A program made the translations under genes and the position numbers. A DNA stretch of 64,000 nucleotides, taken from positions 248,001 to 312,000 of IMG/VR virus record IMGVR_UViG_3300023174_000038. One strand, given 5' to 3'. The notes beneath the pieces are model-generated. The model was not told the origin of the DNA. It ran no database searches and saw nothing but the letters and a program-made list of their open reading frames with translations. This stretch comes from a virus. Shown here piece after piece: positions 13,485 through 55,250 of this stretch; within the stretch, counting starts at the first letter, position 1; every line of letters begins with the position of its first letter.

Positions 13485-14810
13485 ATGAGATTTACCGAGA
13501 TTATAACTGAAAGCACTGATCTTATACCCTTTGCAGATGGGCATTTGGTTGCCAGTAACCATTTTATAAAAGATAGAAGTATCAAAAGAAATATATCTAT
13601 GGATAATATTTTACAGGTATTACATAAATTGGAAAAAACAAGAAAAGAAGAATTATTTAAAATGCCTTTTGTTAATTTTGTTGTAAAGGCCCCTCATCTT
13701 GGTATAGGTTTATCTAAACAAAAAGATTGGCATGGTGACATAGTATATGTAATTACTACCGCTCACGAAACTTTAAGAGTAGGTGATCTAGAAGATGTAT
13801 TTTATTTAGAAGAAGAAACTGGCACCAGACTCAAGGACCTAGCAAAAATTGCTACAAATATGCCGGATGCTGATTTTTGGTTAATACGTAAAGGTAGTGA
13901 TAAAACTGTTGGAAAACCTGTTAAAGAATTTGATCCTTCACGTATTGGTATTAAAGTTGTAAGAACTGATGTGCTTGACCCAAACTATCTTTATTATGTA
14001 ATGATGCATTTACACAATCAAGGACAATTTGCACGTATAGCAAATGGTACTACTAATTTAGTTAATATTACTGTAAATGATATTGCTAATATTCCATTAG
14101 GTCAACAAGGTATGACCGAAGCAGGTAGTCCGGCACAACAGGCTGCTATTGCTATTAATATGAAAAAACATCATAAAAAACCTAAATCAGAAAGCTTAAA
14201 TGAATTTGTATCTGATGATGGTGATGAAGAAGAATCACTACGCAAATATGCTAAGTTGTGGTATAACGGTGATGATACTACACAACAACAAGTTGAAAAA
14301 ATCTTAGCACGTATGGGTTGGGAAATTGGTGAGATAGAATCAGAAGAAGGCGGTGCATTTGTTGTACAGTCCGGTGATATGAATGGTGATAGTTACATTG
14401 GTTTCACTGTTAATGATTTAACTGAGAGTACGGAAAGGTATACAAAAATGAAAATAGAAGAACTAATTACTGAAGGCGAGAATTGGTCAAAGCACAATAA
14501 TCCAAGAGCAGGTGGTATGAGTAAAAAGTCTGTAAAGAGTTACCGCCGCAGTCATCCTGGTAGTAAGATTCAAACAGCAGTAACAACTAAACCAAGCAAA
14601 CTTAAAAAGGGTAGTAAGGCAGCAAAGCGCCGTGCTAGCTTCTGCGCTAGAATGCGTGGGATGAAGAAACATCGTACAGGTGCTAAAACAGCAAATGATC
14701 CAAACAGTAATATCAATAAAAGTTTACGTAGATGGCATTGTGAAAGCATTGAACAAATGCAAGAGTTAGTAATGTTAGCTGAACAAAAAATTAGGGATCT
14801 TAAGAAATGA
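13485..14810 (+). CDS. probable head-cargo polyprotein with capsid-targeting-like N-terminus and DUF6321-like domain
   Basis: A 441-residue mosaic. The N-terminus MRFTEIITES resembles the T4 capsid-targeting peptide ending in a prohead-protease site (I-T-E/S). Further (I/L/M)-x-E sites separate blocks: GMTEAGS near 206, SLNEFVS, DLTES and ELITEG near 325. The block before ELITEG (LRKYAKLWYNGDDTTQQQVE) is a small acidic domain. The C-terminal block (HPGSKIQTAVTTKPSKLKKG ... FCARMRGMKKH ... RRWHC) looks like DUF6321, a basic likely nucleic-acid-binding domain. Next gene starts by ATGA overlap. Packaging and cleavage are inferred. Confidence 0.7.
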   Translation: MRFTEIITESTDLIPFADGHLVASNHFIKDRSIKRNISMDNILQVLHKLEKTRKEELFKMPFVNFVVKAPHLGIGLSKQKDWHGDIVYVITTAHETLRVGDLEDVFYLEEETGTRLKDLAKIATNMPDADFWLIRKGSDKTVGKPVKEFDPSRIGIKVVRTDVLDPNYLYYVMMHLHNQGQFARIANGTTNLVNITVNDIANIPLGQQGMTEAGSPAQQAAIAINMKKHHKKPKSESLNEFVSDDGDEEESLRKYAKLWYNGDDTTQQQVEKILARMGWEIGEIESEEGGAFVVQSGDMNGDSYIGFTVNDLTESTERYTKMKIEELITEGENWSKHNNPRAGGMSKKSVKSYRRSHPGSKIQTAVTTKPSKLKKGSKAAKRRASFCARMRGMKKHRTGAKTANDPNSNINKSLRRWHCESIEQMQELVMLAEQKIRDLKK

Positions 14811-16180
14811 ATTTTGTAGAACTATTTGAGGGTACAACACCCAAATTACCGGGTGCTGTAGGTGGCATCAAAGTTATGAGTATGGATCAATTCCTTGCTC
14901 AATCGGGTGATGAACCGGAAGAAAAAATAGATGAAATGTCTTCCGAAGAATTAGATAAAATGTCCCCTGAACAATTAGCACAGTTTACACATAAGGCTAG
15001 AACTGATAAAGCTAAGGTAGATCCCAAAACAATTGATCAGGCTTATGGTAAAAGTATGGATATAATGTTTCCGGATCGTAAAAAATCAGAACATAATAAA
15101 CAACAAGGTGTGGCGGAAGCAACCAAACTTCCAGCACAAACACGTGAACTAAAGGGTCAAGAACTAGATGATTACTTAGATAGAATTCGTAATCGTGAAA
15201 AGGGTAAAACAGACAAATATAAACTACCTTACATCCATCGGTCAAGTGTAGTAAAATACTACAATGAAGAAGGTAAACGCTACGATACAGACCAAATCAA
15301 AACAGCATTAGGCGTTCGTCCAAAGAAACTTCTTAAACAAAATGAGAAGATGAAACATAGTAATGGTGAACTAGAACAATTCTATAACATTGGTTTTGCC
15401 GCATTAGTTGGTATCGCACTAGACGAAGGAACTAACGAACTAATTGTAGTTAATACATGTCCGGGTGCTGGATCATGTAAAGTAGATTGTTTTGCTATGA
15501 AGGGAGGCAAAGTACAATTTGAAGGTCCTTGGTTAAGCGACGGAAGAATTCTTACATTCTTATTGAATGATCCAGATGGTTTCTTTAATCAATTAAGTGC
15601 AGAAATCACAAAAGAAGAAAAACAAGCACAAAAAGGTGGTTACAATTTAACTATTCGTTGGCATGATGCTGGTGATTTCTTTAGCCCAGAATATATGGAT
15701 CTAGCATTTAAGTTGGCGGCTGCCCATCCTGATGTTAAATTCTACGCTTATACAAAGATAGCCGATGCGGCATTAGGCCAAAAGCCAAGTAACTTTATTG
15801 TTAACTGGAGTGAAGGTGCAAGCACTAGCCAAGAGAAACAAGTTAAAGCACAGGATGCTAATTTAGATAAAACTAAAAATAGTCGTATTGTTCCAAGTAA
15901 GTTATTCTATGACTTGTTAAAGAAAGATAAGGATGGTAAGTTAGATAAAACTGCCGACGGTGCATGGCAACCACGTGATGCAGCCGCATTGGAAGAATTG
16001 AAAGATAGATTAGCGGCCGCATATAATCTAAAACGTGATAGTATCATTGATTACAATGAGATGATGGCCACCCCACAAAAGAATAACATTAAGAAATGGA
16101 ATGTTATTATTGCTCCGGGTGAGGGCGATATCAGTGCTAATAGACAAGATGTATTATCAACATTATTATTGAAACACTAA
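14807..16180 (+). CDS. GP88-like domain protein with capsid-targeting-like N-terminus
   Basis: A 457-residue protein. N-terminus MNFVELFEGT carries an L-F-E/G site; QQGVAEATKLP near residue 105 carries V-A-E/A. The C-terminal 330 residues match the phage gene-product-88 domain: VNTCPGAGSCKVDCFAMKGG (three clustered cysteines), IRWHDAGDFFSPEYMDL and DVKFYAYTKI. Function of GP88 is unknown; the cysteine cluster may bind metal. It overlaps the previous cargo-like gene by 4 nt. Packaging is inferred. Confidence 0.75.
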   Translation: MNFVELFEGTTPKLPGAVGGIKVMSMDQFLAQSGDEPEEKIDEMSSEELDKMSPEQLAQFTHKARTDKAKVDPKTIDQAYGKSMDIMFPDRKKSEHNKQQGVAEATKLPAQTRELKGQELDDYLDRIRNREKGKTDKYKLPYIHRSSVVKYYNEEGKRYDTDQIKTALGVRPKKLLKQNEKMKHSNGELEQFYNIGFAALVGIALDEGTNELIVVNTCPGAGSCKVDCFAMKGGKVQFEGPWLSDGRILTFLLNDPDGFFNQLSAEITKEEKQAQKGGYNLTIRWHDAGDFFSPEYMDLAFKLAAAHPDVKFYAYTKIADAALGQKPSNFIVNWSEGASTSQEKQVKAQDANLDKTKNSRIVPSKLFYDLLKKDKDGKLDKTADGAWQPRDAAALEELKDRLAAAYNLKRDSIIDYNEMMATPQKNNIKKWNVIIAPGEGDISANRQDVLSTLLLKH

Positions 16181-20346: not shown

Positions 20347-20350
20347 ATTT

Positions 20351-21440: not shown

Positions 21441-21458
21441 TGTGTTCTCCTATGTTGT

Positions 21459-21487: not shown

Positions 21488-21516
21488 GCGGGAATGATGC
21501 CAAAAGGCCGCTGTTC

Positions 21517-21990: not shown

Positions 21991-22223
21991 TTTGAAAGAG
22001 TTCTCCACATTTTAACTTGGTCATGCTCTTTTAAGAATTCATCCTCACCCACAAATGTAGGACTATCTGCCATAATCTCATCTAACAACCACTTGATACG
22101 ATGTAAATCTTTTTTGATTTCAAACTGATTGAAACCATCATTGTAATTGCTATGTAATTCTACACCACTCATATAGATTTGATGATGTACACTGTTGTAA
22201 TCCATTTGTTTACGCAAGCCCAT
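21987..22223 (-). CDS. small conserved hypothetical protein
   Basis: Seventy-eight residues: YNSVHHQIYMSGVELHSNYN, FEIKKDLHRIKWLLDEIM. It is coupled to folE by a one-base overlap and to the nucleotidyltransferase by ATGA. Its place inside the folE operon is suggestive, but no function is known. Confidence 0.7.
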   Translation of the reverse strand: MGLRKQMDYNSVHHQIYMSGVELHSNYNDGFNQFEIKKDLHRIKWLLDEIMADSPTFVGEDEFLKEHDQVKMWRTLSK

Positions 22224-34062: not shown

Positions 34063-34960
34063 TTATTGTATTCCTGATGAACCGGCTGAGCTATACAATG
34101 CTGCACTTAAAGGACCACGTACACTTGCTGTTGCTGTATCTGTTGCATATGTAATTCTATCCACTAATGACGTTGCAGAAAATCCTCCTGCAAACCAACC
34201 ATAACTGTTATTACCAACTGAGGTAAAATATCCTCTACTAGAGCTAAGTGGGCCACGAATACTAGCGGTAGCAGTATCTGATGCATATGTAATACGTGAA
34301 ACGGTTGATATAACACTACTTCCACCTGCCCACCACCCATATGTGGTATTATCAGAAGATGCTGCCTGTGCATATGTACTTAGACCAAGTGGACCACGTA
34401 CACTTGCCGTTGCTGTATCTGTTGCATATGTAATACGATTGACTGTTGACACACCGCCTGGTATACCTCCGCCACCAAACCAACCATCAGTACTAATTCC
34501 GGCCGCCGCAAACCTAGAATTAGCCAAACTAAGTGGACCACGCACACTTGCTGTTGTTGTATCTGTTGCATATGTTACACGATCTACTAATGACGTTGGT
34601 GCACCCAAAGTGACCCCGCCACCAAACCAACCATCAGTAGTATTTCCGGCCGCAGCTAAATAAAATTTGGCTGCACTTAATGGGCCCCGAACACTTGCTG
34701 TTGCTGTATCAGTTGCATATGTTATTCTATTTACGGCTGATGAAGGTCCATTAACGTTGCCACCGACCCAACCATTAGTAGTATTGCCGGCACCTGCTGC
34801 GCTGCCTGTACCTGTACTTAATGGTCCGCGAATACTTGTTGTAGTAGTATCTGTGGTAAATGTAATACGATTGACAGTACTACGTACAGCAGGATTTCCT
34901 CCACTGACCCATCCTGCTGTTGCTTCAGATGGAGGTGCTGCCGTAAGCGTCCATCCTCCG
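34063..34960 (-). repeat. six tandem approx. 135-nt coding repeats
   Basis: The kelch-like gene contains six copies of a unit whose conserved part encodes RITYATDTATASVRGPLS-like strands. High similarity allows unequal recombination; the one-repeat gene at 33806 may be a product. Confidence 0.7.
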
Positions 34961-35001
34961 CCCGATATTGTTACACCGCCACCACTAAATGTTACTGACA
35001 T
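34063..35001 (-). CDS. kelch-like repeat adhesin/tail fibre protein
   Basis: A 312-residue protein with a short Gly/Ser N-terminal leader (VTISGGGWTLTAAPPS) and six repeats of about 45 residues. Each has GW(F/V)GG, then RITYATDTATASVRGPLS and an A-rich turn. Six copies fit a six-bladed beta-propeller, a receptor-binding architecture. Repeats are alike at DNA level too. Late octamer GATAAATA at 35020-35027 and SD AAAGGGAA support late virion expression. Confidence 0.7.
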   Translation of the reverse strand: MSVTFSGGGVTISGGGWTLTAAPPSEATAGWVSGGNPAVRSTVNRITFTTDTTTTSIRGPLSTGTGSAAGAGNTTNGWVGGNVNGPSSAVNRITYATDTATASVRGPLSAAKFYLAAAGNTTDGWFGGGVTLGAPTSLVDRVTYATDTTTASVRGPLSLANSRFAAAGISTDGWFGGGGIPGGVSTVNRITYATDTATASVRGPLGLSTYAQAASSDNTTYGWWAGGSSVISTVSRITYASDTATASIRGPLSSSRGYFTSVGNNSYGWFAGGFSATSLVDRITYATDTATASVRGPLSAALYSSAGSSGIQ

Positions 35002-36039: not shown

Positions 36040-36972
36040 TTAAGAACCGTAGGCTGCGGCTCCAAGTTCGCCTCTAGCAGTGCCCACCCCGGTAGTATCT
36101 GTAGCAACCACGCCTGTATTTGATACTAGATTAGTCATTGATACTCTTACTCCAACCTCACCGTATCCAAAGATAGCTTTATCAGTTCCATAACCTGCGG
36201 CTGCAAGATTCATTCTAGCAGTACCGACTCCGGTAGTATCAGTTGCGACAACACCGGTGTTTGATACTAGATTGGTAATTGAATAATAACCACCATCAAA
36301 TCCATAACCAAATATAGCTTTACCTGTACCGTAACCAGCGGCCGCCAAACTATTTCTAACAGTACCGACACCCGTGGTATCTGTTGCTACTACTCCTGTG
36401 TTTGACACTAGGTTGGTTACTGCTGTTCTAGCACTTCCATATCCATATCCAAAAATAGCTTGTCCACTACTGCCGTAGCCGGCAGCTGCCAATGCCTGTC
36501 TAGCTGTACCAACCCCTGTTGTATCTGTGGCTACTACGCCTGTGTTTGAAACTAAATTAGTCATTGAGAACACAATAGTATTATTTGTTCCATATCCAAA
36601 TAAGGCTTTATCAGTGCCATACCCTGCGGCCGCCAAACTAGTTCTAGCAGTGCCCACTCCAGTTGTGTCATTGGCAACCACGCCTGTATTACTTACTAAA
36701 TTGGTTATTGCCGTATTACCGGTAGAATACCCGTATCCAAAAATAGCTTTATCTGTACCGTAACCTGCGGCTGCAAGTTGATATCTAGCAGTGCCCACAC
36801 CAGTTGTATCTGTAGCAACTACACCCGCACTTGTTACTAGGTTGGTTATTGCTGTTACACCTACCCCACCAATGTATCCATATCCAAATATAGCTTTATT
36901 ACCGCCTGGAGGTGGTGTAATAGCCCATCCTCCGCCATTTAATGTTATTCCACCTGTAATTGTTATTGACAT
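36040..36972 (-). CDS. kelch-like repeat adhesin/tail fibre protein
   Basis: A 310-residue protein with a leader like that of the 34063 adhesin (ITGGITLNGGGWAITPPPGG). It has six repeats of about 48 residues, each KAIFGYGY ... TNLVSNTGVVATDTTGVGTA then LAAAGYG. Its repeat sequence differs completely from the 34063 gene while the leader is kept, which fits swappable receptor-binding propellers on a shared attachment stub. Receptor specificity unknown. Confidence 0.7.
   Translation of the reverse strand: MSITITGGITLNGGGWAITPPPGGNKAIFGYGYIGGVGVTAITNLVTSAGVVATDTTGVGTARYQLAAAGYGTDKAIFGYGYSTGNTAITNLVSNTGVVANDTTGVGTARTSLAAAGYGTDKALFGYGTNNTIVFSMTNLVSNTGVVATDTTGVGTARQALAAAGYGSSGQAIFGYGYGSARTAVTNLVSNTGVVATDTTGVGTVRNSLAAAGYGTGKAIFGYGFDGGYYSITNLVSNTGVVATDTTGVGTARMNLAAAGYGTDKAIFGYGEVGVRVSMTNLVSNTGVVATDTTGVGTARGELGAAAYGS
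36060..36900 (-). repeat. six tandem approx. 144-nt coding repeats
   Basis: Repeats encoding the TNLVSNTGVVATDTTGVGTA strand are nearly identical in protein and much alike in DNA; a substrate for repeat-number change. Confidence 0.7.
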
Positions 36973-36982: not shown

Positions 36983-37936
36983 TTATTGAAAAATTTCTGG
37001 ATGTGCTTTGCCAAATATCTTAATATACTTGCCAGCCATTACATCCGCTTCAGCTTCTATTGGACTACCAGGATAACTATCACCCGGCTTAATCATATTT
37101 AATTCACCCTGACGTACATGTGTTAATTCATGGAACACAGTACGTAATATATCTACTAAATTTCTATTAGCACAATAAACCCATACTTCACCCGTCTCTG
37201 GATTATGTCTTCCAGTATGATGACCTTCTTGTGCTTCATCACTATCATAACTAAACTCTATCTTTGGAGTATTTTGTAAATTCAACTTCTTACTTGTCCA
37301 AGCAAGAAACTTCTGTACAATAGGATTACTATTCAAATCTTCTTGTTCAGCTTCTGTAATGTAGGGCTTTAATAACTCTGGATCATATCCTTTATGTCTA
37401 GCAGAATCTCGTAATCGTCTTAACCCTTTAGCTTCAATTTGTCTTATTCTATCTCTAGACAAGTCAAACCTATCACCAATCTGTTGTAATGTCATGTCAT
37501 ACCAAAATCTTAAAATTAATACTTTTCGTTGGTCATCGGTTAATCTGTCTAAGCCGTTTTGGATAATTTGTTTAATACTATCATCTGTTGCAGGCTCCTC
37601 ACCAGCTGGATCTTTATATGGTACTCGTTCTGCCCTATTATAAATATCGTTTGGATCATTTAATGTTGGCATTTTATTATGAGCTCCACGATATGTAGCA
37701 CCATCTGGGTTGTAATGTCGTCCTCCAACCTCATCTAGTTTATCTTTAATCCAATTGTCTGGAGTTTTATGATATTTTCTAACAAATAAATCATGCAATG
37801 CATCACCAGTAATACGGTGTTTCTTTGCTATGTTTTTCATTAGCTTATCAATGGTATTATAGTCGTGTTTCTCTAAGCTAGGAAGTTTCTTAGCTAGTTC
37901 AACTGCGGCTGATTCGTATAGTTCTATTGCTCTCAT
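36983..37936 (-). CDS. probable head-cargo protein: sigma-70 region 4 domain fused to zinc metallopeptidase
   Basis: A 317-residue protein. It starts MRAIELYESAA, a capsid-targeting-like peptide with an L-Y-E/S site. Residues 12-65 are a helical domain (HDYNTIDKLMKNIAKKHRIT). Residues 120-178 match sigma-70 region 4 (LTDDQRKVLILRFWYDMTLQ, RDRIRQIEAKGLRRLR). A second site, I-T-E/A at 193-196, precedes a metallopeptidase domain with HELTH at 269-273 and a Glu-rich helix (PIEAEADVMAG) that can give the third zinc ligand. An ATG 10 codons downstream of a GTG is chosen, because the late octamer lies between them. Confidence 0.75.
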   Translation of the reverse strand: MRAIELYESAAVELAKKLPSLEKHDYNTIDKLMKNIAKKHRITGDALHDLFVRKYHKTPDNWIKDKLDEVGGRHYNPDGATYRGAHNKMPTLNDPNDIYNRAERVPYKDPAGEEPATDDSIKQIIQNGLDRLTDDQRKVLILRFWYDMTLQQIGDRFDLSRDRIRQIEAKGLRRLRDSARHKGYDPELLKPYITEAEQEDLNSNPIVQKFLAWTSKKLNLQNTPKIEFSYDSDEAQEGHHTGRHNPETGEVWVYCANRNLVDILRTVFHELTHVRQGELNMIKPGDSYPGSPIEAEADVMAGKYIKIFGKAHPEIFQ

Positions 37937-37941
37937 ATTAG

Positions 37942-37949
37942 TATTTATG
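37942..37949 (-). promoter_or_regulatory. late-promoter-like octamer CATAAATA
   Basis: CATAAATAC on the minus strand, 5 nt before the ATG at 37936; leaderless geometry. Confidence 0.6.
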
Positions 37950-38039
37950 CTCACTTTTGATTTCACAGTAGCGAATTGTTACATCAGGCCAGCAGCCGGC
38001 CCACACTTGAAAACGCAAAGGTCCTAAGGTAGTGTGTTC
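37950..38039. other. structured intergenic region
   Basis: About 90 nt, more GC-rich than its surroundings, between the nuclease stop and the late promoter. It has CACACT/AGTGTG (38002-38007 with 38031-38036) and GGCC/GGCC (37987-37990 with 37998-38001) pairings. The 13-mer at 38020-38032 equals the GGTCCTAAGGTAG core of bacterial 23S rRNA (I-CeuI target region). No ORF fits. Confidence 0.4.
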
Positions 38040-38852
38040 TTAATCATTCGTCTTACATTTAGCACGTTTAGCATTGGTTAATGCTCCGTAATCTACTGGC
38101 CATTCTTTACCAGGCTGTAACTCTTTAGCGTTTGCAGGGAAATGGTACTTTACACCTGCATATTCTTGTATCTGTGCTAATGGAGCACGAAACTGTGTCA
38201 AATCATTACCCAAATTAACATATGGTTTCTTATGTGGGAACTGCCATCCAGCAACTTCATGTGTAACATTGTTAATAACAATCTTGTAGTAACCATGAGG
38301 AACAACTACACCATTACCAATCTTTTCATTACCTGTACCATAATATGCACCTACATAAATTGTGAATGGTTGTTTTAGTTGTACTGCCCATCCACGTATA
38401 CTTGTTTCTAATAGTTTCCATATGCCACGATTCAATGAACCATGTTGAGGATACATATTAGTCATTAAAAAACTTTCATATTCTACTTGTTGTGTCCAAG
38501 ATAGATCACCATCTGGTGCAGCATGACCTTTGTCATAACCCGTAGCTACATAATCATCAGGCTTTGCACCATCTTTAATACTAGCATCAGCAACAAAAGC
38601 GTTTGTTCTTGGGAAACAACCTAAAGCATTTTCTGGCTTAAGAGTGTATGCTACATATACTGGTATCTTTGCTGGCGAATCATATGCTACAAGATATGCT
38701 TCACGACATATTGGTTGTGATGGTCTTGCTGTTTGTGCAAATCCGTACGGACTATGTATTTGACATTGTTGTACTGGTAAGGGAGCACGTTGATCCCATG
38801 CAAATATATTTGTTGATATTAGTACTGTTGCTATTGCTATTATTTTTTTCAT
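38040..38852 (-). CDS. exported DNA/RNA non-specific endonuclease (NucA/NUC1 family)
   Basis: A 270-residue nuclease with a signal peptide (residues 1-18, cleavage after IFA). Catalytic motif D107-K-G-H110 (YDKGHAAPDGD), and the metal-binding LNRGIWKLLE (N141, E149) follow the beta-beta-alpha-metal fold. It degrades DNA and RNA without sequence preference. Export to the periplasm could recycle nucleotides, clear competing DNA or help superinfection exclusion. It is located inside the cargo-gene cluster. Confidence 0.85.
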   Translation of the reverse strand: MKKIIAIATVLISTNIFAWDQRAPLPVQQCQIHSPYGFAQTARPSQPICREAYLVAYDSPAKIPVYVAYTLKPENALGCFPRTNAFVADASIKDGAKPDDYVATGYDKGHAAPDGDLSWTQQVEYESFLMTNMYPQHGSLNRGIWKLLETSIRGWAVQLKQPFTIYVGAYYGTGNEKIGNGVVVPHGYYKIVINNVTHEVAGWQFPHKKPYVNLGNDLTQFRAPLAQIQEYAGVKYHFPANAKELQPGKEWPVDYGALTNAKRAKCKTND

Positions 38853-38862: not shown

Positions 38863-39489
38863 TTATCCTACTACTGTACGATTCTTTACTTTACTAATTT
38901 CTACACTGAGTGGTGTATTAGTTGTTTTTGCTCTAAATATCTTATCAGTCTCACGTACACCTGGCTTAAGTTCAGATGCTACAATTAAGAATCTTGCTCT
39001 ATTCTTTCTCATGCCAATAAACTCACCTACTAATACTTGGTAATTAGGATAGTTAGGTGTTAAATCTATTTTAGGATTTTCTTGTTCATTGATGCTTTCT
39101 GACACACCTTGTGCAATTGCTTCACGTGCCTGACGTTCATTTTCTTGTTTGAATCGTTGCATGGCTTGACTATCATTTATTTGTCCACGATCCAGTGCTT
39201 GCCAAATTGGCAAATCAAATGTGAGATATTTTTTTTGTACTGCTTGAGCATAACTAACTTCATTGCCACGACCTTGCCAATCAGGTTTATGCCCCCAAAC
39301 AACAGATACAGATTGACCATTTGGGAAGTTGATACGCATACGCTCTCCATAAAATACATATGTACTACCTTGCCATGTAAAAGCAAGATCGCCATTAACT
39401 GTTTTACCCATAGACCAGCCATGCTTTTTTAACAGTGAATCAACTGCGGCTTGATTATCATTCTCAATAATAAACTCTGTTGCTCTCAT
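38863..39489 (-). CDS. probable head-cargo protein with capsid-targeting-like N-terminus
   Basis: A 208-residue protein starting MRATEFIIEND (I-I-E/N). First block ends at GVSESINEQENPKI, where two sites (V-S-E/S, I-N-E/Q) lie together near residue 135. The N-terminal block (KKHGWSMGKTVNGDLAFTWQ, YVFYGERMRINFP) is a small beta domain; the C-terminal block (YQVLVGEFIGMRKNRARFLI) is another. Neither has a recognised function. Overlaps dps by one base (TAATG). Confidence 0.65.
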   Translation of the reverse strand: MRATEFIIENDNQAAVDSLLKKHGWSMGKTVNGDLAFTWQGSTYVFYGERMRINFPNGQSVSVVWGHKPDWQGRGNEVSYAQAVQKKYLTFDLPIWQALDRGQINDSQAMQRFKQENERQAREAIAQGVSESINEQENPKIDLTPNYPNYQVLVGEFIGMRKNRARFLIVASELKPGVRETDKIFRAKTTNTPLSVEISKVKNRTVVG

Positions 39490-39929
39490 TACTCACGTTC
39501 TCTTTTTAATGTTGAACGGATAAACCATGCTTTCTTACCGTATAGGTCTTGCAGTTCAGCCATGTAGTTAGCAATACCCTGTTGACGTTCATTTGTTGCT
39601 TCATCAAACATAGCAACAACAAGTTGACCTAATGTTTCACAATCTTGTAGTAACTCAATAAACATGAGTTCAGCTCTTGGAACTTTAGTTTGGTCTTGAA
39701 TGATACTTAATTCAGCATAACGTGTTAGACTGCCAGGAGTATAGTGACCTAATATTCTGATATATTCAGCTACAGGATCAATAGTAGCATTTACATCTTC
39801 ATACAATGTATTAAAGAATTCGTGATATTGTGGGAAGTTACTTCCCTCCACATTCCAATGAAAGTTTTGTGATTTGATAGCAAAGCTTTGTGTACTAGCT
39901 AATAGTACTTTTAAATTATCTGATAACAT
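39489..39929 (-). CDS. dps: Dps/ferritin-like protein
   Basis: A 146-residue four-helix-bundle protein. The ferroxidase ligands of Dps are present: H24 (NFHWNVEG), H36 (YHEFF), D51 and E55 (IDPVAEYIRILG). Dps proteins bind DNA, store iron and protect from oxidative damage. In this phage it could protect DNA in the cell or be packaged; it lacks a capsid-targeting peptide. Operon-linked with cargo genes on both sides. Confidence 0.85.
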   Translation of the reverse strand: MLSDNLKVLLASTQSFAIKSQNFHWNVEGSNFPQYHEFFNTLYEDVNATIDPVAEYIRILGHYTPGSLTRYAELSIIQDQTKVPRAELMFIELLQDCETLGQLVVAMFDEATNERQQGIANYMAELQDLYGKKAWFIRSTLKRERE

Positions 39930-39938: not shown

Positions 39939-42900
39939 TTAGTCTTTCTTTTTTGTATTAACATTGATGGCTTTACCACTACGGTCAGGATTAGGATCTT
40001 CTCTACGTTTACGTTGAGCGGCACTTGCACGACCCTTCTTACCTAGACTATGTGCTTTACTTTGTGGCAAGCATTTTGGTTTACCTTCTCCTGGTTCTCT
40101 AGCACATGGACCTTTAATCTTTCCTTTAGTATCCATGCGAACCCACTTTTCTTTATTAAACCAATCATGCAAACTTTCATCTGCCCTTTCAATACCTTCT
40201 AGTATAGAACTTTCATTCTTCTTCCCACCGTTACCCCAGTTACTTGCGCCTTTGTTGCGACACTTAACTAATGCACCACTGGCATAAGCACTTGGCCATA
40301 CTTTATAACGACTCTTTACTTTGTAGTAGCAAGCATCTTTCTTTTCGTTCATTAATTCTTCACTAACCATTTCGCCACCACAGTGTGGGCAACTTTCACT
40401 GTGTTGGTCTTCATTTGTTTTATTTTTAGCACAACTACCCGGAAAGCCTGCTTTAGTACCAGCAACTCTATGATAGCCGGACCAGCATTTCAATTCATCT
40501 AGTTGATCTTTTGAATGGTCACCGTGTGTTTCACACATACCGCAGTCTTCACAGACCATTTCCATTTCAATGCTTTCATTGTGCTTCTTCTTACCTGCAC
40601 AATGAGCCTTTTGACTAAAGCCTTTAGGATGACTACAGTTAATACTGCTCTTATATTTTTGACTCCAGCCTTCATCCATCTCTTGTTCATTAACGTAAAT
40701 TGCGGCAGTTGTTTTATTTAAACTTTGTGGATCTTTTACGCCGGCTGCTACTTTAATTGCTTTAACTTTTTGTCTATAGTCATCAGCATATTCGGCTAAT
40801 CTGTAGCCTAACATTTTACCAATTTCTTCAGGTGTAGCTGGTTTATCTTGCGGAGTATTTGCACCAAAAGTTGTGTCTAGTATCTTAGGCCATGCCATCC
40901 AGACCATATTTGATAACTCTTTATATGCTTTGCTTCTTAATTCTTTAATTTGAGCTTCAGCCTCATCTTCAGAAATACTAGGTGCGGGTGCAGGAATAGT
41001 TCCTTTGAATGCTTGAGCATTACCGGCACCGCCTAATCCTGCGGCAGCTAATGCGCCGGCGCCTGCTGCCTTACCCATGTTACCTAAAAACCCTCTACGG
41101 TTCATATCAGCTTCTTTCAAACCTGATTTTTTACGTATATACAATCTATCCTGTAATATTGAAATAGCATTGTCTAACTTTTTATTCAATGATTGATAGT
41201 TATCTTTTGCACCATACTTAACGTGCATACTAGTATCAGTATCATTCTGCATTGCAGGAGTTAACAAACCTTTACGTTCTAATCTATCAACTAACTTATC
41301 TAATAGTTCTTGCTTTTGTATAGCATTATCTAATTGTGCTAATCTAGCTTTTAATACAGAATGTTTTTCACCAGGTTGTGCAACTGGTGTTGGTTGAAAT
41401 TCTCTACGTAAACCTTGTTGTGCTTTTTGTACTGTGTTCTTTTCAAAATCTTGTCTCCAAGCTTCTATTTCAGCTTCACGCTGTTTCTCTATAGCTAATT
41501 TAGCTTGAATCAACGCATCCAATGATGTAGATTTTAATTGATCACCTAAGTTTTCATCAATTGATGCATAACGCTTATCATCTAAATCATCGTGGTAACT
41601 TCTTTGTGGTGGTTTTTTTAGCTCTATTGGTTTCTTAGATGAACCTCTATAACCACGTTCCCATGCCGCTGCACCTGCTGCCGCACTTTTACCATTTTTA
41701 ACAAAGTGATTAATGACTTCTTGTTTACTGTTAAATCTAGGTGATTCTATACCTTCATTTGTTGCCATTTCGCCATCATTACTATGACCATAATATTTGG
41801 CTACTTTTTGTAAATCAGCAGAATTTCTATCGTTAAGATAATCAGTTACTAAATCATGTATCTGATATCTTTGTTCTTGCGGGGCTGGTAATTCTATTTC
41901 ACCTTCACTTGCATCAGCAATATGTGCGGCGCCGGGACTGTCTAAGAACCATATCTCATCATCCTCATCCCATTCTAATCCCCATTTGTCTATTGTTGCA
42001 GTTAATACATAGTTGTTAGTAGTACCTACTACAAATTTGTTACCGCCTATATAACGTGAGCTATTTGGTTGACCGTAATCTTTTGGTCCTTTAGGGCCGC
42101 CAGTTTGTACAAATTCATTTATACCTTGACTGATACCAGATTTCTTTGTATCATTAGCAAATTGTTTTTTAGTTGCACGAACAATACCACTGAAACGTTT
42201 ATCACCACGCTTGTAATCGCCCTCTTTATCAGCTTTTCCTGCATCGGCAGCGGCCGCTGTTTTATATTGTGCTAGTTTCTCATTAGAGATTTCATCTAGT
42301 TGTGATTCAGGCATTAATCCGTGCTTTGTAATACGAGCATCTAATTCATCACGCTCTTTGGAATATTTTTGTATAAGTTCTTTATTACCTACTTGAATTG
42401 CTTGTCTAAGTTTTTCCTGAATGGCATCTGCTAAATCATAGTATTGATCCATTTTCATTCTAGTGGTATTATCTTCTTTTATTGTTTTACCTTGACCTAA
42501 TTGTTGTAAATCACTTGTTAATACATCTTGTGTAACACTACCCATACCTTTTGAAATCGTAATGCGAGAATGTTTACGATCCTTACTCATAGCAACTACT
42601 TTTGATGGTTGTCCAAAATACTTAACAGTATCACCTATCTGTATGTTCTTCATAGATACATTACCAACATTAACCGGTTTATCACCTGCAAAGTTACCTT
42701 GATCTCCCCATGGGTCATCTAAACTTTCATTTGTACCAGTAGCTAATCTATCATGGTCACTATCACGTTGGGCTTTTTCTGCCGCTGCCTTCATAGCACG
42801 ACCTTTAGCAAAATCTTTTTCTTGTCTTATTAAACCATATGGATCATACTCATCATCATCTGTTTGTGTATGTCTACCACGTTTAGGATATGATGGTGCA

Positions 42901-42983
42901 TCTGCCCCGTATTCTCTTGCTGGATCATTATGTCCGTAAAAAGGATTGGATTCGTTTATTATACCTTTTAGAATATTGCTCAT
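39939..42983 (-). CDS. giant mosaic head-cargo polyprotein
   Basis: A 1014-residue protein made of short modules separated by (I/L/V/M/T)-x-E sites: IINES near 10, TNESLDD, TIKED, INEFV, TNEGIE, SIDEN, LKEAD, SISED, YVNEQ, QLDEL, MNEKK, LEGIE. Between them lie a Lys/Ala-rich block, an acidic domain (WDEDDEIWFLDS), coiled coil, a twin-arginine-like segment (MNRRGFLGNMGKAAG, 627 onward), several Cys-rich knuckles (CEDCGMCETHGDH, SCPHCGGEM) and a basic C-terminus (GPCAREPGEGKPKCLPQSKA). Packaging and processing by a prohead protease are inferred. Confidence 0.7.
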   Translation of the reverse strand: MSNILKGIINESNPFYGHNDPAREYGADAPSYPKRGRHTQTDDDEYDPYGLIRQEKDFAKGRAMKAAAEKAQRDSDHDRLATGTNESLDDPWGDQGNFAGDKPVNVGNVSMKNIQIGDTVKYFGQPSKVVAMSKDRKHSRITISKGMGSVTQDVLTSDLQQLGQGKTIKEDNTTRMKMDQYYDLADAIQEKLRQAIQVGNKELIQKYSKERDELDARITKHGLMPESQLDEISNEKLAQYKTAAAADAGKADKEGDYKRGDKRFSGIVRATKKQFANDTKKSGISQGINEFVQTGGPKGPKDYGQPNSSRYIGGNKFVVGTTNNYVLTATIDKWGLEWDEDDEIWFLDSPGAAHIADASEGEIELPAPQEQRYQIHDLVTDYLNDRNSADLQKVAKYYGHSNDGEMATNEGIESPRFNSKQEVINHFVKNGKSAAAGAAAWERGYRGSSKKPIELKKPPQRSYHDDLDDKRYASIDENLGDQLKSTSLDALIQAKLAIEKQREAEIEAWRQDFEKNTVQKAQQGLRREFQPTPVAQPGEKHSVLKARLAQLDNAIQKQELLDKLVDRLERKGLLTPAMQNDTDTSMHVKYGAKDNYQSLNKKLDNAISILQDRLYIRKKSGLKEADMNRRGFLGNMGKAAGAGALAAAGLGGAGNAQAFKGTIPAPAPSISEDEAEAQIKELRSKAYKELSNMVWMAWPKILDTTFGANTPQDKPATPEEIGKMLGYRLAEYADDYRQKVKAIKVAAGVKDPQSLNKTTAAIYVNEQEMDEGWSQKYKSSINCSHPKGFSQKAHCAGKKKHNESIEMEMVCEDCGMCETHGDHSKDQLDELKCWSGYHRVAGTKAGFPGSCAKNKTNEDQHSESCPHCGGEMVSEELMNEKKDACYYKVKSRYKVWPSAYASGALVKCRNKGASNWGNGGKKNESSILEGIERADESLHDWFNKEKWVRMDTKGKIKGPCAREPGEGKPKCLPQSKAHSLGKKGRASAAQRKRREDPNPDRSGKAINVNTKKKD

Positions 42984-42984
42984 A

Positions 42985-43866
42985 TCACGCTTTCTTATTC
43001 TTGTTATCTAACATGCCACGCTTATTAGCTGTTGCCCAAGCAATGTTCTCCGCTTCTTTTTTACTGTGACCTAATTTCTTTTCACTTTGTGCTACATGCT
43101 TAACCATACGGTCTACTTTAGCACCTTCATCTATTGGTGCATGAACTGGACATTGGTCTTGACCATGTGTTCTACACACACATTTCAAATTAGGTTTGCC
43201 TTCTGCTACGCCCTGTTGACCATACGTATCAAGAATTTGTCTAACATAAAAATTATAAAAACCACGACGGCTATTGTATTCTCTATCTCCAAGTACAGTC
43301 TTTAGTGCTTTTACAGCATCAGTTACTTCTGGGCCACGCATTATTTTTAATGAGTCAGTAACTAGTGTATCACCTCTTTGTGAGCCTTCTGATACACCTT
43401 GAACTTGTTTACCTTCTAAGTATTCACGTATAGTGTTTAGATAATCATTGGCTTTAATAATCTTTTCTTGTACCCAACCATCAAGACCTTCTTCTTCACT
43501 AAGGTCTTTAATCATTGAATAAACTTGTTGAGCATTCTTTGCGGCACTGAATAGATCACTACGTGCCATCTCAACTTCGTGGTCTATACGACTTTGACCA
43601 TGTGGCACAAATCCATTTTTACGACTACGTCCTTGTCCCGGAACGACAATAACATCATCTTCTTGTAGTTCTGCTTCACTTATTTCAGCACTTTCATTAA
43701 TGCTGTTAGCATATGGAGCACTAGTCTTTTTACCCTTGAATAGTGTGCCTACTTTCTTGCCACCATATATGCTAGGATTTCCCCTAGATTGTGTGCCACC
43801 TAATGGTGAATTTACAGTAGCTATTGCACCTGCTGTTGTAGTTTCAGTGATTTGTTTGATTTTCAT
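42985..43866 (-). CDS. probable head-cargo polyprotein with capsid-targeting-like N-terminus
   Basis: A 293-residue protein starting MKIKQITETTTAG (I-T-E/T). More sites: SINESAEISEAELQED near 58-70, QGVSEGS and QGVAEGK, and PIDEGAK. Blocks: Gly/Ser start (GGTQSRGNPSIYGGKKVGTL), a helical middle (RSDLFSAAKNAQQVYSMIKD), a Cys/His block (CVCRTHGQDQCPVHAP) and a basic tail (HVAQSEKKLGHSKKEAENIA) of a known small phage module. Late octamer at 43889-43896. Function of the blocks unknown. Confidence 0.7.
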   Translation of the reverse strand: MKIKQITETTTAGAIATVNSPLGGTQSRGNPSIYGGKKVGTLFKGKKTSAPYANSINESAEISEAELQEDDVIVVPGQGRSRKNGFVPHGQSRIDHEVEMARSDLFSAAKNAQQVYSMIKDLSEEEGLDGWVQEKIIKANDYLNTIREYLEGKQVQGVSEGSQRGDTLVTDSLKIMRGPEVTDAVKALKTVLGDREYNSRRGFYNFYVRQILDTYGQQGVAEGKPNLKCVCRTHGQDQCPVHAPIDEGAKVDRMVKHVAQSEKKLGHSKKEAENIAWATANKRGMLDNKNKKA

Positions 43867-43920: not shown

Positions 43921-44835
43921 TTAGATTTTGCCTGAGGGCTTTGCTGTTGGTGGGATACCTGCTCTACTAGTATTCCAATAGAATGCTTTTGCGTTCTTTT
44001 TGATACTGTCAGGCTTAACATCTACTGTTAATGCTGTACTAAAACGAGGGTCATTCTTCTGTTTTTTGCTTGGGATATAGCCCGAAGCTTCACCTACATA
44101 CATTTCATCTACATTAGCGTACATATTGTCTAAACTTAAATGTTTGCTATGTAATTTGTCTCTCAAGTCATATAGTTTTGTAATATAGCCCCTGCTACGT
44201 AATGCTTTATATGCTAAATTTTCAGGGCTAAACTCACCACCTTTATCTAATCCAGCTTGACGATATTGTTTAATCTTTTTTAATACTTTATTGACTTTAC
44301 TTATTTTATCAGATTGTAATACTGTATCAATAATGTCTAATAGTTTTATATATTTTGCTTTAGTAGCTGTTTGGTCAAAGTTAGCTCTACGTTTTGCAGG
44401 CATACGCAACCATTTATTATCTTTAACACTATACTCACCTAAGCTAGTGACAGGTTCTGCCGCATCTTGTATGTATAATTCTACCGGAATTCCATTGATA
44501 GTAATATCATGTGAATCATTGTATAAATCTTTTTTAGCCTTAAAGAATTCATGGTAAATGTCATCGTCAGGTAAATCCTTCATATTGACTAAGATATGTA
44601 AATCTAAATCACTATGGTCTGTATAACTATAGGCTGCATTACTTCCGGATATAGTAATATCACGTACATCCAAATCATGTATACCCATCTCTTGTAAGAA
44701 ATCTTGTGCTATGTGTTTTAGTTGTAGTTCAACTTCAGGTTGAAGATGTTGTCCACGGAATAACTTTGGATTGAGGTTATCGTGAAATGTCACAGCATCT
44801 GACATTTTGAATGAATGTAATTCTTTTAAGTCCAT
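43921..44835 (-). CDS. nucleotidyltransferase-fold protein with cargo-type C-terminal tail
   Basis: A 304-residue protein. The motif ISGSNAAYSYTDHSDLDLHI (GS-x-SD-D) is the minimal nucleotidyltransferase signature, with a third acidic position possible in PVELYIQ. It might modify an RNA or protein with a nucleotide. After YVGEASGYIPSKKQKNDPRF (V-G-E/A site near 250) there is a basic tail I recognise as recurring at the ends of phage cargo-like proteins. Leaderless geometry behind a late octamer. Confidence 0.7.
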   Translation of the reverse strand: MDLKELHSFKMSDAVTFHDNLNPKLFRGQHLQPEVELQLKHIAQDFLQEMGIHDLDVRDITISGSNAAYSYTDHSDLDLHILVNMKDLPDDDIYHEFFKAKKDLYNDSHDITINGIPVELYIQDAAEPVTSLGEYSVKDNKWLRMPAKRRANFDQTATKAKYIKLLDIIDTVLQSDKISKVNKVLKKIKQYRQAGLDKGGEFSPENLAYKALRSRGYITKLYDLRDKLHSKHLSLDNMYANVDEMYVGEASGYIPSKKQKNDPRFSTALTVDVKPDSIKKNAKAFYWNTSRAGIPPTAKPSGKI

Positions 44836-45901: not shown

Positions 45902-47008
45902 TTATTTTTCCTCTAGATAATCCACACTTTCGGTAACCTTAACTGGATCTTCTTCTGCGTTTCTAAACTCAAAACGACTTTGTTGTAGATTGTACTTTTT
46001 AATAGCTAATTCTAAATATCTATCAATTAAATTGTACGGTACTTTACGATTAACTAACAGAGGTGTTCTTCTTGGACCATCTAAGTAATATACATCTACA
46101 TATTGTGGATGAAATACTTTAGCTGTTTTTTCTGCTTCTGCCAAACCTTGCTTTACTGTTTTATAAGCACTCTGTAGCACAAACATATATTCTTTATCTG
46201 TTATATCCGGTAGTATACCTTCAACTGCTGTATTGAAAAAGTCATCACCTGCTATCATATTCATAGCATGTATCATACCCAATTCATCAACATTTTTTTG
46301 TTTTGCTACTTGTATAGCAATTTCCAATAGTTTTCTTATTCTACGATTTCTATCATTCTCGCCACCACCATCACCCCTGTCGCTACTCGGCGGGACAAAT
46401 TCATTTAATGATCCTTCTGACAATTCATTACCCATACCCATATCTAACATCTTAACAACATTAGCGGCTAGTTTAGGATTCTTTTGTGTTGCAGGATATA
46501 AACTCATAACCATTGCTGTCTTACGCTTATCATTCAATGTAGGCCATGCATTACGTATCTCTGTGGCACTAGTGATACCAGGACCAAATTCTACTGTGGG
46601 TAAATAAGCCATGTAAGCATGTTTGCCAAATGGTTGTACATTTTCGCCTGTGTATGGTTGAAAGTATGCCGGACTACCGTCTTTCTTTGTACCACCTGGT
46701 TTAGGACTTTCATTACGATCCTTTTCACTACGAACAAAGATTACCACGTCTTGTTCTGGATTAAACTTATCAGTGATTTCTCTAGGTTGAAATGGACTTT
46801 TAACTTGTATAAAATGTCCAGGACTAACTCCTGCTACCTTAGCTAGTTTTTCTTTAATAGCAAAGGGGAAAGGTCTGGTCTTTGTATCATTGGTAGCGGC
46901 TACATATACATCAGCACCGGGAAATGCTTTAAGTGCGGCTTGGTACAACGATGCATGACCAGCATGAAAAGGATGAAAGCCTCCTGGCATTATAACAACT
47001 GTACTCAT
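45902..47008 (-). CDS. HxGH nucleotidyltransferase fused to cargo-type modules
   Basis: A 368-residue protein. Residues 1-165 are an HxGH nucleotidyltransferase (MPGGFHPFHAGHASLYQAAL; late TSATEIRNAW). Then come two prohead-protease-like sites in NELSEGSLNEFVPPSSDRGD, a helical module (RKLLEIAIQVAKQKNVDELG), a third site GLAEAEK and a C-terminal beta module (VYYLDGPRRTPLLVNRKVPY). Fused enzyme plus cargo-like modules is unusual. ATG at 47008 is 1 nt after the previous stop. Confidence 0.7.
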   Translation of the reverse strand: MSTVVIMPGGFHPFHAGHASLYQAALKAFPGADVYVAATNDTKTRPFPFAIKEKLAKVAGVSPGHFIQVKSPFQPREITDKFNPEQDVVIFVRSEKDRNESPKPGGTKKDGSPAYFQPYTGENVQPFGKHAYMAYLPTVEFGPGITSATEIRNAWPTLNDKRKTAMVMSLYPATQKNPKLAANVVKMLDMGMGNELSEGSLNEFVPPSSDRGDGGGENDRNRRIRKLLEIAIQVAKQKNVDELGMIHAMNMIAGDDFFNTAVEGILPDITDKEYMFVLQSAYKTVKQGLAEAEKTAKVFHPQYVDVYYLDGPRRTPLLVNRKVPYNLIDRYLELAIKKYNLQQSRFEFRNAEEDPVKVTESVDYLEEK

Positions 47009-47009
47009 A

Positions 47010-47396
47010 TCAGTATGATAATTTAACAAAATTAACTACACCACCATTAAAGTCTACAACCTTTGCTCTCATATATACAAAATTACCATCTATATTTGTA
47101 TAGACAGAAGCATTACTAGCAATTTGTGGTGCAGAGTTAGCTGCCGCATTTGCATTAGCTTCTAATTCATATACTTTGAACCAATCAGTGCTACTTGGTG
47201 TTGTGGCTAAACTAGCTTCAATTGTGATATTACCTGTACAGTTTGTTACATTGATATTAACAGTTTGCAGTGAACGTGGTGTTATGATATATGATGCACC
47301 GGGTTGGCTATCACCAGTTACAGTATAGGGTGAATTATTGCCTGGATTAATATAGGTAGTTTGCGGCAATAGAATAAGAGTAGTTGTTTGGCTCAT
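47010..47396 (-). CDS. probable virion protein, small beta domain
   Basis: A 128-residue protein rich in Thr, Asn and Ser: INPGNNSPYTVTGDSQPGAS, VNINVTNCTGNITIEASLAT. Beta-sandwich-like. It starts at TAATG overlapping the stop of the gene before it. Composition fits a tail or head decoration protein. Confidence 0.6.
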   Translation of the reverse strand: MSQTTTLILLPQTTYINPGNNSPYTVTGDSQPGASYIITPRSLQTVNINVTNCTGNITIEASLATTPSSTDWFKVYELEANANAAANSAPQIASNASVYTNIDGNFVYMRAKVVDFNGGVVNFVKLSY

Positions 47397-51436: not shown

Positions 51437-52132
51437 TTATGATTTGCCTTCAATTTTTTCTTTTGTTCGGCAGTTTTCAAAGTGCCATCTACCCATAGTA
51501 TTTTTTCCACCAACTTTGTGGCAGTGAGGGCATTCAACTTGTTCTTTTGGTACTCCTTTAAATCGTAATGATGTTTGTTGTCGCAACTCATCCGTATGTT
51601 TTTTACCATAAAAAGGGTTAGTATTGCCTGGTCTACTTAGTTGTTTTCTGACCTCCGGCCTTTTAGCTGGATTGGACTCACCGTATTGCCAGTAGTTTTT
51701 TCTGCCTTTTAATTTAGTAGATACTTTTAACGCAATCTCCGGATCTCTCATAGGATTATTATTTCCTAATTTTTTAGGAGTATTTTTAGAAATTAACATA
51801 CGAACCTCAGGTCGTTTTGCAGGGTTATCCAATCCATATAATGGAGCAATAGAAATATTATCTGTTCTATTAATCCATTTTTCAGAATGTACTACTTTAA
51901 TTCTCTGTAGTACTCGCTGTTCCCATCGTCTAGCAGAAATAGAATTATTAAATATTTTTCGTACTTCAATAATTGAAGGCTCTCCGTACAATTGTACAAT
52001 GGTGCTAACATGCCTGCTTGAAGTTTTGTAACTAACCCACAAATCACCCGGGTGACATTTTTTAGCATAGCGGACTCCGTAATACCATCTATTAATTTTT
52101 GGCCAACCTAATAGATATGTATAAGGTATCAT
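51437..52132 (-). CDS. homing endonuclease with NUMOD-like repeats, chimeric C-terminus
   Basis: A 231-residue mobile endonuclease. N-terminal module MIPYTYLLGWPKINRWYYGV with RRWEQRVLQRI is GIY-YIG-like. The C-terminal half carries repeated DNA-binding motifs (NPAKRPEVR twice, then GNTNPFYGKKHTDE) and a possible zinc site (CPHCHK ... HFENC). The last residues, RTKEKIEGKS, nearly repeat the holin's last RTKEKLEGKQ. The ATG overlaps the holin stop as ATGA. An insertion at the holin 3' end is the simplest explanation. Confidence 0.78.
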   Translation of the reverse strand: MIPYTYLLGWPKINRWYYGVRYAKKCHPGDLWVSYKTSSRHVSTIVQLYGEPSIIEVRKIFNNSISARRWEQRVLQRIKVVHSEKWINRTDNISIAPLYGLDNPAKRPEVRMLISKNTPKKLGNNNPMRDPEIALKVSTKLKGRKNYWQYGESNPAKRPEVRKQLSRPGNTNPFYGKKHTDELRQQTSLRFKGVPKEQVECPHCHKVGGKNTMGRWHFENCRTKEKIEGKS

Positions 52133-52755
52133 TGTTTTCCTTCTAATTTTTCTTTTGTTCTTCCATAAGCTGCAACTCCTAATACAGCACCCATAGCAAT
52201 ATGATAAAGTCCGGCACCTTGTAATGTTAACGGTTGCCATTGATTAGTGACTTGACCCTTACTCATTGCTTGTAATAAACTCCATAATACGGGGAATATA
52301 ACAAAATCACATGTACATGTTATCATATAAACGAATGCCATTAATGGTCGCCATTTTTTATTAATAAAATCTGTGTTATCATTAGCTACTAATACATCTG
52401 CCCCGCTTGCGGCATTTGTTGGGGCTGCTCCTGTGAGGACGGGTTGATTACTGTTTGATTGGTTAATGTTTTGTGTGCTACCAAATCCAGACGTTGGCGC
52501 TCCAAATCCTGAACCACCACCAAAGCCCGTTGATGTTGACGTACCAAAACCACCGGGTGAGCCGAAGCCTCCTGCTGACGGTGAGCCAAATGTTGAAGAC
52601 CCGCCAAATGATATGTTGACTGCATTACTATCTCCAAATGAACTGCCTTGCGGAAATTGCTGTATTGTAGGATCAGCCGCTAACATTTCGTGATGGTCAT
52701 CATCTAATGTCATTGGTTGCTCAAATCCTGTTTTCTTAGGTAATATCGTTGCCAT
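52129..52755 (-). CDS. holin, three-TM type, with FG-rich N-terminal region
   Basis: A 208-residue protein. The C-terminal 80 residues match the holin family with three helices (KKWRPLMAFVYMITCTCDFV, IFPVLWSLLQAM, LYHIAMGAVLGVAAYGRT). Holins open the inner membrane for lysis; this class occurs in gene-transfer agents and phages. Residues 40-100 are unusual: GGSSTFGSPSAGGFGSPGG and more, rich in FG/GFG, unlike ordinary holins. Downstream in the same operon lies the chimeric endonuclease. Confidence 0.75.
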   Translation of the reverse strand: MATILPKKTGFEQPMTLDDDHHEMLAADPTIQQFPQGSSFGDSNAVNISFGGSSTFGSPSAGGFGSPGGFGTSTSTGFGGGSGFGAPTSGFGSTQNINQSNSNQPVLTGAAPTNAASGADVLVANDNTDFINKKWRPLMAFVYMITCTCDFVIFPVLWSLLQAMSKGQVTNQWQPLTLQGAGLYHIAMGAVLGVAAYGRTKEKLEGKQ

Positions 52756-55180: not shown

Positions 55181-55250
55181 GTAGTGTAGCCCACGAGAAT
55201 CTGACCTCTCCGACTACTCTAATGCTCATATCTTGAAAGGAAGCACCAGC

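Follow-up and report, generated by a model that had tools for sequence, protein, structure and literature searches.

Packaging and injection of individual internal proteins are established features of tailed phages. The T4 prohead protease gp21 cleaves after Glu in L/I-x-E, and T4 internal proteins bear propeptides that serve as capsid-targeting sequences (PMC9026906). Here we describe a gene of a giant T4-like phage that may extend this design to a polyprotein. It lies in a window of 64,000 nucleotides, positions 248001-312000 of the 348,701-base virus record IMGVR_UViG_3300023174_000038, as an intact open reading frame (ORF) of 1014 codons on the minus strand (39939..42983; ATG at 42983); the plus strand across this interval contains many stops. 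We estimate a probability of roughly 0.7 that its product is a capsid-targeted polyprotein, which the prohead protease cuts into modules that are packaged and injected. An earlier note had described a 1014-residue mosaic of more than ten tandem modules, in which Cys-rich, acidic, coiled and basic types alternate between x-N/D/S-E-S/G/A/D-like borders, and had interpreted it as a string of mini-effectors meant to be cut apart. The descriptive part of that account is borne out by the analyses below. For the interpretive part, cutting has strong sequence support (module shuffling, breakpoints at xxE sites, a retained P1 Glu, the positions of signal peptides, and a gp21-type protease), and a role as mini-effectors is plausible. 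The capsid-targeting-like N-terminus, the head protease, the Tat-like signals, the virion proteomics of relatives and the DNA-level joint are additions made here to that account.

Both the enzyme and the type of site needed by this hypothesis are present, given the head genes of the phage. The genome encodes a gp21-type prohead protease (PF03420, 1.7e-28; phrog_207, 3.6e-61), with genes for a scaffold-like protein (phrog_10922), an acidic core-like protein and a gp23-type capsid protein next to it. The gp23-type protein has a propeptide-like N-terminus with LLE, ILE and LLAE sites ahead of SSAG..., the apparent start of the mature arm. The first 11 residues of the 1014-residue protein, MSNILKGIINE (42951..42983, minus strand), resemble a capsid-targeting propeptide: ending in I-N-E, they fit the T4 rule of a short N-terminal propeptide closed by L/I-x-E. 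Likewise, homologues carry the same tag or variants of it (MSNILKGILNE, MSKILKGLLNE, MSSILKGLQLNE), and other homologues have tags of unrelated sequence with the same hydrophobic-x-E ending (MKPSDFLTE, MKTYQFITE, MRANEFLIE, MLVQDLFE, MKISTLFE). Capsid-type tags are joined directly to single modules in other phages. A loose tag pattern matches 89 of 180 complete polyprotein-type ORFs, in which start codons were assigned mechanically, and six neighbours in the window have tag-like starts (13485, 14807, 36983, 38863, 42985, 52755). No family of IPI, IPII, IPIII or Alt was hit in the Pfam or PHROGs scans.

These head genes also bear on whether the protein is a scaffold or core-type protein, like T4 gp67, gp68 or gp22, that is chopped by the protease and leaves the head as pieces with no later role. 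Core proteins are likewise cut at many L/I-x-E sites (PMC9026906), and the 1014-residue protein is charged and partly helical. We nevertheless regard this explanation as improbable. Genes resembling gp22 and the acidic core proteins already adjoin gp21, the modules include conserved Cys motifs, relatives contain TonB/TolA, GNAT-like, ASCH-like, GP88 and Tat parts, and relatives are present in mature virions. The protein has no match to the known core proteins gp22, gp67 and gp68, and a scaffold protein as such was rejected on account of the separate scaffold-like gene next to gp21.

Sites of the protease type are enriched both within the protein and at the boundaries of exchanged modules. The motif [NDS]E[SGAD] occurs 13 times in the 1014 residues versus 4.4 times in shuffles (P 0.0005), and NE followed by S, G, A, D, F, K or Q occurs 10 times versus 1.9 expected; control motifs with K, R or Q replacing E are not enriched. 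Breakpoints were defined as the ends of all-against-all BLAST matches among 38 non-redundant homologues and the query. Of 814 such breakpoints, 184 have [LIVT][AND]E at a distance of 5 residues or less (null 77 +/- 7); motifs of the same form with K, R, S, A, N, T, G or Q show no enrichment there, and [LIV]xD is slightly enriched (1.26 times). At the 322 well-resolved breakpoints (70% identity or more), [LIVTMA]xE lies within 5 residues in 206 cases (null 88.6 +/- 8.6; z 13.7) and [LIVT][ADNS]E in 123 (null 35.3 +/- 5.6; z 15.5), z values that overstate certainty because the homologues are related and the breakpoints not fully independent. Motifs with control residues carry the same kinship bias, and those with D, K, Q, R, S or G reach 0.7-1.1 times the null at the well-resolved breakpoints. 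A chance origin of the Glu sites was rejected on the basis of these control residues.

The Glu at P1 stays although the upstream module changes. In 17 of 18 distinct upstream contexts of the GWSQKYK module, Glu occupies the same place (for example MDE-G, LDE-K, VDE-G, VAE-G, LKE-G, LLAE-A, FQE-S), and the one context lacking it is a free-standing gene. For the Cys module at residues 831-858, the P1 Glu is retained in nearly all of 32 upstream contexts. This retention argues against an uncut, multi-domain internal head protein from which the tag alone is removed and in which the joints are shuffling seams or hinges with an incidental Glu. Such a protein would be expected to display tag likeness, virion presence of relatives and shuffling equally well. 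It would not account for joints that keep a P1 Glu and a hydrophobic residue or Thr at P3 while their neighbours vary, with D, Q and K showing no such enrichment, or for the deep internal signal peptides described below, which would be non-functional in an uncut chain. We therefore consider it unlikely, albeit the strongest of the alternatives.

Cutting at the main sites would yield the 11-residue N-terminal piece and about 14 modules, a number that is our reading and varies with how many sites are truly used. These pieces differ clearly in charge and Cys content, and the alternation of types is visible in their charge, Cys and helix profiles. In minus-strand order, the first module (residues 12-86; 42726..42950) ends in TNE with a breakpoint at 86, and the second (87-170; 42474..42725), a small beta barrel with weak KOW/SH3 likeness, ends in TIKE with a breakpoint near 166-170. 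A helical hairpin (171-231; 42291..42473; predicted local confidence, pLDDT, 63-88) ends in LDE and follows another helical module in locus L045. Module 232-290 (42114..42290), ending in GINE, stands directly after the tags MKPSDFLTE, MKTTDFLTE and MSNILKGLQLNE in some homologues and is C-terminal in L062. The acidic module 291-410 (41754..42113; net -12) ends in ATNE, has breakpoints at 290 and 410, and lies between unrelated sequence in L071. Module 411-477 (41553..41753), ending in SIDE, is replaced in L019, L020 and L024, and the helical module 478-624 (41112..41552), ending in LKE, occurs without its neighbours in L075. Next is module 625-771 (40671..41111), which ends in MDE and begins with a signal peptide like those of the twin-arginine translocation (Tat) pathway.

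The remaining six modules are short and contain Cys pairs or triplets. The basic module 772-803 (GWSQKYKSSINCSHPKGFSQKAHCAGKKKHNE; 40575..40670; net +6) has Glu immediately before the residue preceding the conserved Trp in its 17 of 18 upstream contexts. It is followed by the acidic module 804-830 (40494..40574; net -8; end LDE) and by module 831-858 (CWxGYH...; 40410..40493; end TNE), whose 32 distinct upstream contexts include a tag-like N-terminus, MKTFNQFQAE. The acidic module 859-880 (CPHCGG; 40344..40409; net -6; end MNE) often has GVAE directly upstream in relatives. Module 881-936 (KDACYYKVKSRYKVWPSAYASGALVKCR; 40176..40343; end ADE) matches phrog_727, phrog_3477 and phrog_38880 at differing positions and is found in virion proteins of the cyanophages S-SCSM1 and S-CREM2. 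The basic, DUF5872-like C-terminal module 937-1014 (39942..40175; net +13) starts the single-module genes L078 and L079. The gene product is thus a polyprotein in the sense that one ORF holds independent modules bounded by protease-type sites.

The modules are shuffled among phages. One scan of viral contigs retrieved 67 loci with relatives, of which full- or near-full-length ones are located at L014-L025, L030, L035 and L037. Scanning every ORF with 14 seed modules revealed deletions, insertions and altered order, with no full-length colinearity. The GWSQKYK module is located upstream or downstream of the C-terminal block depending on the phage, and module 937-1014 precedes 881-936 in cyanophages and in L013 and L035, the reverse of the order in the window. 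The module at about 230-290 is N-terminal directly after a tag, internal or C-terminal depending on the homologue. In phage Bellamy, module 772-803 stands alone behind a capsid-like tag in a single-module gene for 51 residues (MKSFKQFQE-SWSNKYK...). In PHROGs, the same pieces match at different profile positions. Cyanophage relatives are widespread (369 phage records; phrog_727, 3.4e-34), show partial matches in differing order, and often lie between gp15/gp16 and terminase.

Structure prediction is consistent with this picture. AlphaFold2 returned a pLDDT of 46.9 and a predicted template modelling score (pTM) of 0.25 for the full-length protein, with no continuous fold. Folded islands appear at 112-162, 170-221, 479-620, 672-746 and 945-990, and most joints have low confidence; low pLDDT elsewhere is no evidence of disorder because the alignment was shallow (15 rows). 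All matches of the full-length model in the PDB had E > 0.2, the sole likeness worth mention being that of residues 112-162 (pLDDT 57-67) to KOW/SH3 folds (NusG C-terminal domain 2mi6, TM(target) 0.66, E 0.58, not significant). The model of the C-terminal module (pLDDT 60) was too weak for a fold search. Consistent colinearity and a single continuous fold, which would have spoken against the reading in the earlier note, are both absent, since homologues are shuffled, some modules stand singly and pTM is 0.25. A tail fibre or other ordinary structural protein was rejected for the same reasons.

Further support for cutting comes from signal peptides behind joints. All polyprotein-type ORFs were searched for RRx[FILMV][LIFMV] followed by a hydrophobic stretch. 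This identified 17 distinct Tat-like sites, 16 of them in phage ORFs at chain residues 28 to 917. In all 16, the RR pair lies 2-5 residues after an xxE site; the 17th match is in a bacterial ORF and has no xxE site. The site in the window protein (ADMNRRGFLGNMGKAAGAGALAAAGLGGAGNAQA; residues 625-658; 41010..41111, minus strand) has its RR 4 residues past the P1 Glu. Signal peptides act at an N-terminus, and Tat-like signals deep within chains are hence hard to explain without cutting. Three related modules tested score above the TIGR01409 cut-off (16.7 bits), and in L013 a TolA/TonB C-terminal domain directly follows the Tat-like signal (TIGR01352, 34.8 bits, cut-off 27.1; TonB_2, 1.1e-17). 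If cut free, Tat-bearing modules could be exported to the periplasm. Internal Tat-like signals after joints, followed by varied domains, also occur at L087-L100, L144, L151, L183, L188, L295, L322 and L343, a possible list of periplasm-addressed phage cargo. By eye, modules that start with GWKDVVAGGAMTLGALGANAHT or GWREKLGAAALAGSMALGAAGAHA right after a joint Glu (L040:2-1033, L047:2730-6392, L045:4779-8300, L058:2947-4434) look like they carry Sec-type signal peptides.

Cyanophage relatives provide evidence from virions. Mass spectrometry of purified S-CREM2 virions detected gp160 (7 unique peptides), gp137 (4), the cytidylyltransferase gp154 (3) and gp156 (6) (PMC10665884 Table 3). On translation, gp160 contains DUF5872-like, CWxGYEKKG and KDACYHKVK modules, gp137 has a C-terminal module (NRKDKTDG...) of DUF6321 type by eye, and gp154 begins MKNFSSFLTE-A. 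S-SCSM1 ORF29, an annotated virion protein of a phage for which 45 virion proteins were reported by mass spectrometry, contains the same modules, preceded by VSE-G, MTE-G, FNE-D and VSE-G. A cytidylyltransferase was also recovered from S-SM1 virions (PMC3037559), and the family is a recurrent cyanophage virion protein. In the window, a second modular protein (42985..43866; tag MKIKQITE; joints SINE, QGVSE, QGVAE, PIDE), a putative nucleotidyltransferase homologous to gp156 (43921..44835; 36% identical, 7.5e-46) and an NMNAT-like cytidylyltransferase with a modular tail and joints (45902..47029) are encoded next to the 1014-residue protein on the same strand. Judged against cyanophage virion proteomics, this block of two modular proteins and two transferases therefore resembles one whose products are found in virions.

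The location of the cyanophage relatives between tail-completion and terminase genes (near gp15/gp16/gp17), and their description as structural, would suit a neck, tail or head-surface protein with accreted domains that is neither cut nor a source of effectors. With no colinear conservation, no continuous fold, capsid-type tags and Tat-like signals, this appears very improbable. A separate observation concerns the N-termini of S-CREM2 gp160 (L353:14343-15236) and an S-B68 protein (L086:2767-3390): their start, MAAGATGFTGAAAPEGPVAGYDPLMG, resembles the N-arm of the mature major capsid protein in the respective phage (GADGFTGAAAPGGPNAGFDPVMIG), and residues 17-70 of gp160 score as major head protein in PHROGs (4.8e-10). 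Such capsid-like N-termini are possibly an alternative head-targeting route.

Combining these data, we propose that the tag MSNILKGIINE would bring the entire chain into the prohead core, in the manner of T4 internal-protein propeptides. The gp21-type protease would then cut after Glu at the tag and at the joints TNE, IKE, LDE, INE, IDE, LKE, MDE, HNE, MNE and ADE, leaving about 14 small proteins in the head, which would be ejected together with the DNA when the next cell is infected. The Tat-like signal peptide would stand at the start of one product, such that export to the host periplasm is possible; others, including the small Cys-containing and basic modules, might work on DNA or within the cytoplasm. 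If packaging and cutting do take place, injected cargo is the probable role of the protein, by analogy with T4 internal proteins. With one type of cut site at every joint, the modules would be freely exchangeable, as seen in the shuffling between phages.

Besides the kinship of the homologues, several points weigh against this proposal. For this phage, it stands on sequence. At P3, several internal sites deviate from T4's L/I by having T, M, H or A, and module 625-771 scores 13.9 bits for TIGR01409, below the cut-off. The authors of the S-CREM2 study noted that such virion proteins are possibly carried over from the lysate (PMC10665884). In addition, cyanophage virion relatives mostly lack a T4-like tag (S-SCSM1 ORF29 begins MAKTCKPGYYW), and packaging may therefore use other routes. 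Finally, recognized domains in modular chains are few: TonB/TolA C-terminus, GNAT, GP88, DUF6321 and sigma-70 region, with weak matches to ASCH, ParB and NT5C; the 1014-residue protein has weak likenesses only (DUF5872, KOW/SH3-like barrel).

QGVAE, a joint often seen in relatives, is conserved down to the synonymous positions of its DNA. CAAGGTGTGGCGGAA is present in 145 of 207 distinct QGVAE joints, compared with about 0.7% predicted by multiplying the codon usage of the same ORFs; the 207 joints derive mostly from a scan allowing all codons, and a later scan for the exact 18-mer was left out of the count. Conservation spans about 19 nucleotides, with flanks at background. The exact 18-mer has at least 120 matches in the viral collection versus 14 stretches for one synonymous control. 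Joints on the same strand within 3 kb are spaced by a multiple of 3 in 141 of 146 cases. When QGVAE-type chains are cut at GV[AST]E, 311 inner modules result, which fall into 175 families; most multi-member families have almost as many distinct neighbours as members. QGVAE joints are absent from the 1014-residue protein itself and present in the neighbouring proteins encoded at 42985-43866 and 14807-16180. Because the DNA is conserved at synonymous positions, the joint may double as a recombination seam, and its spread by recombination through the joint is the simplest reading. A ribosome-binding site was dropped as an explanation, as no start codon lay regularly at a suitable distance in the joints inspected. 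A bacterial origin or host link was also rejected: a protein search of bacterial and archaeal genomes found no relative, and the exact 18-mer occurs only 26 times in 257 Gb of such genomes, in unrelated ORFs. More tentatively, T4-like jumbo phages may carry exchangeable cassettes whose joints of about 18-19 nucleotides (CAAGGTGTGGCGGAAGGC) are at once in-frame prohead-protease sites and recombination seams; the cut products, some bearing Tat- or Sec-like signals, would be injected and routed within the new host to either cytoplasm or periplasm.

Other genes of the window share these features. On the minus strand are a protein with tag MRATEFIIE and joint QGVSE (38863..39489) and a sigma-70 region 4 protein (36983..37966; Sigma70_r4, 8.4e-19) whose capsid-tag-like start, MRAIELYE-S, follows an upstream GTG; it may be a transcription factor carried in the virion. 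The plus strand encodes a modular protein that has MRFTEIITE as its tag and carries a DUF6321 module after ITE (13485..14810), and a protein with a GP88 domain, the tag MNFVELFE and a KQQGVAE joint (14807..16180).

The window contains further genes of note. Two minus-strand proteins of repeats of about 45-50 residues (34063-35001, RITYATDTATASVRGPLS; 36040-36972, NLVSNTGVVATDTTGVGTAR), the second with no Pfam match, are likely receptor-binding or fibre-like. Genes for radical SAM, 6-pyruvoyl tetrahydropterin synthase and GTP cyclohydrolase I proteins (19498-22909, minus strand) suggest DNA modification of the 7-deazaguanine type, and a 536-residue protein with no Pfam match (26687-28297) has the GDSGGFQ motif of tRNA-guanine transglycosylases. 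A DNA/RNA non-specific endonuclease of secreted type (38040-38852, minus strand; 1.1e-36), with a signal peptide-like start, is encoded close to a Dps-like gene (39489-39929). Homing-endonuclease-like genes of GIY-YIG or NUMOD3 type are found in the window at 22925-23767, 51437-52240 and 55233-56084, and also at L003:2649-3626; one homing-endonuclease-like gene directly follows the gp23 gene (by eye; no Pfam match).

If the proposal is correct, a single gene would supply at least a dozen exchangeable small proteins, cut apart by the head protease, as a new cargo route for host-takeover or anti-defence factors. Many cyanophage 'hypothetical structural proteins' would thereby be explained. Within the literature searched, Tat-like signals placed behind joints would provide the earliest indication of phage head cargo addressed to the host periplasm. 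The xxE joints, tags and QGVAE DNA joint provide a simple handle for mining hundreds of cargo modules, and the polyprotein hypothesis can be tested on cultured cyanophages.

As a kind, capsid-targeted and protease-processed internal proteins are already known. What appears to be new is the design as a polyprotein, the placement of Tat-like signals behind joints and the joint conserved as DNA, none of which is described in the literature searched (subscription journals and preprints not covered). The T4 proteins IPI, IPII, IPIII and Alt share with this protein an N-terminal propeptide ending in L/I-x-E and a phage gp21 protease, and, as predicted here, packaging and ejection. They differ in that one gene gives one product (Alt also loses a C-terminal piece), whereas here about 14 shuffled modules have cut-like sites between them. 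The phrog_727/phrog_3477 cyanophage family (T4-GC 119; S-SCSM1 ORF29, S-CREM2 gp160) is alike in modules 881-936 and 937-1014, the Cys modules, variable module order, Glu before modules and virion presence by mass spectrometry; its members have fewer modules (200-665 residues) and mostly no T4-like tag, and they are not called polyproteins in the literature searched. In the head ejection proteins of phiKZ and SPN3US, a prohead protease likewise cuts several internal proteins after Glu, some propeptides at several sites, but the propeptides are removed to leave one mature protein, and no string of unrelated modules is described in the same literature. Unlike RNA virus polyproteins, the protein belongs to a DNA phage, would depend on an unrelated serine head protease in its predicted cutting, and has no fixed module content; by sequence design, it shares with them one ORF, many (here predicted) products and a virus-encoded protease.

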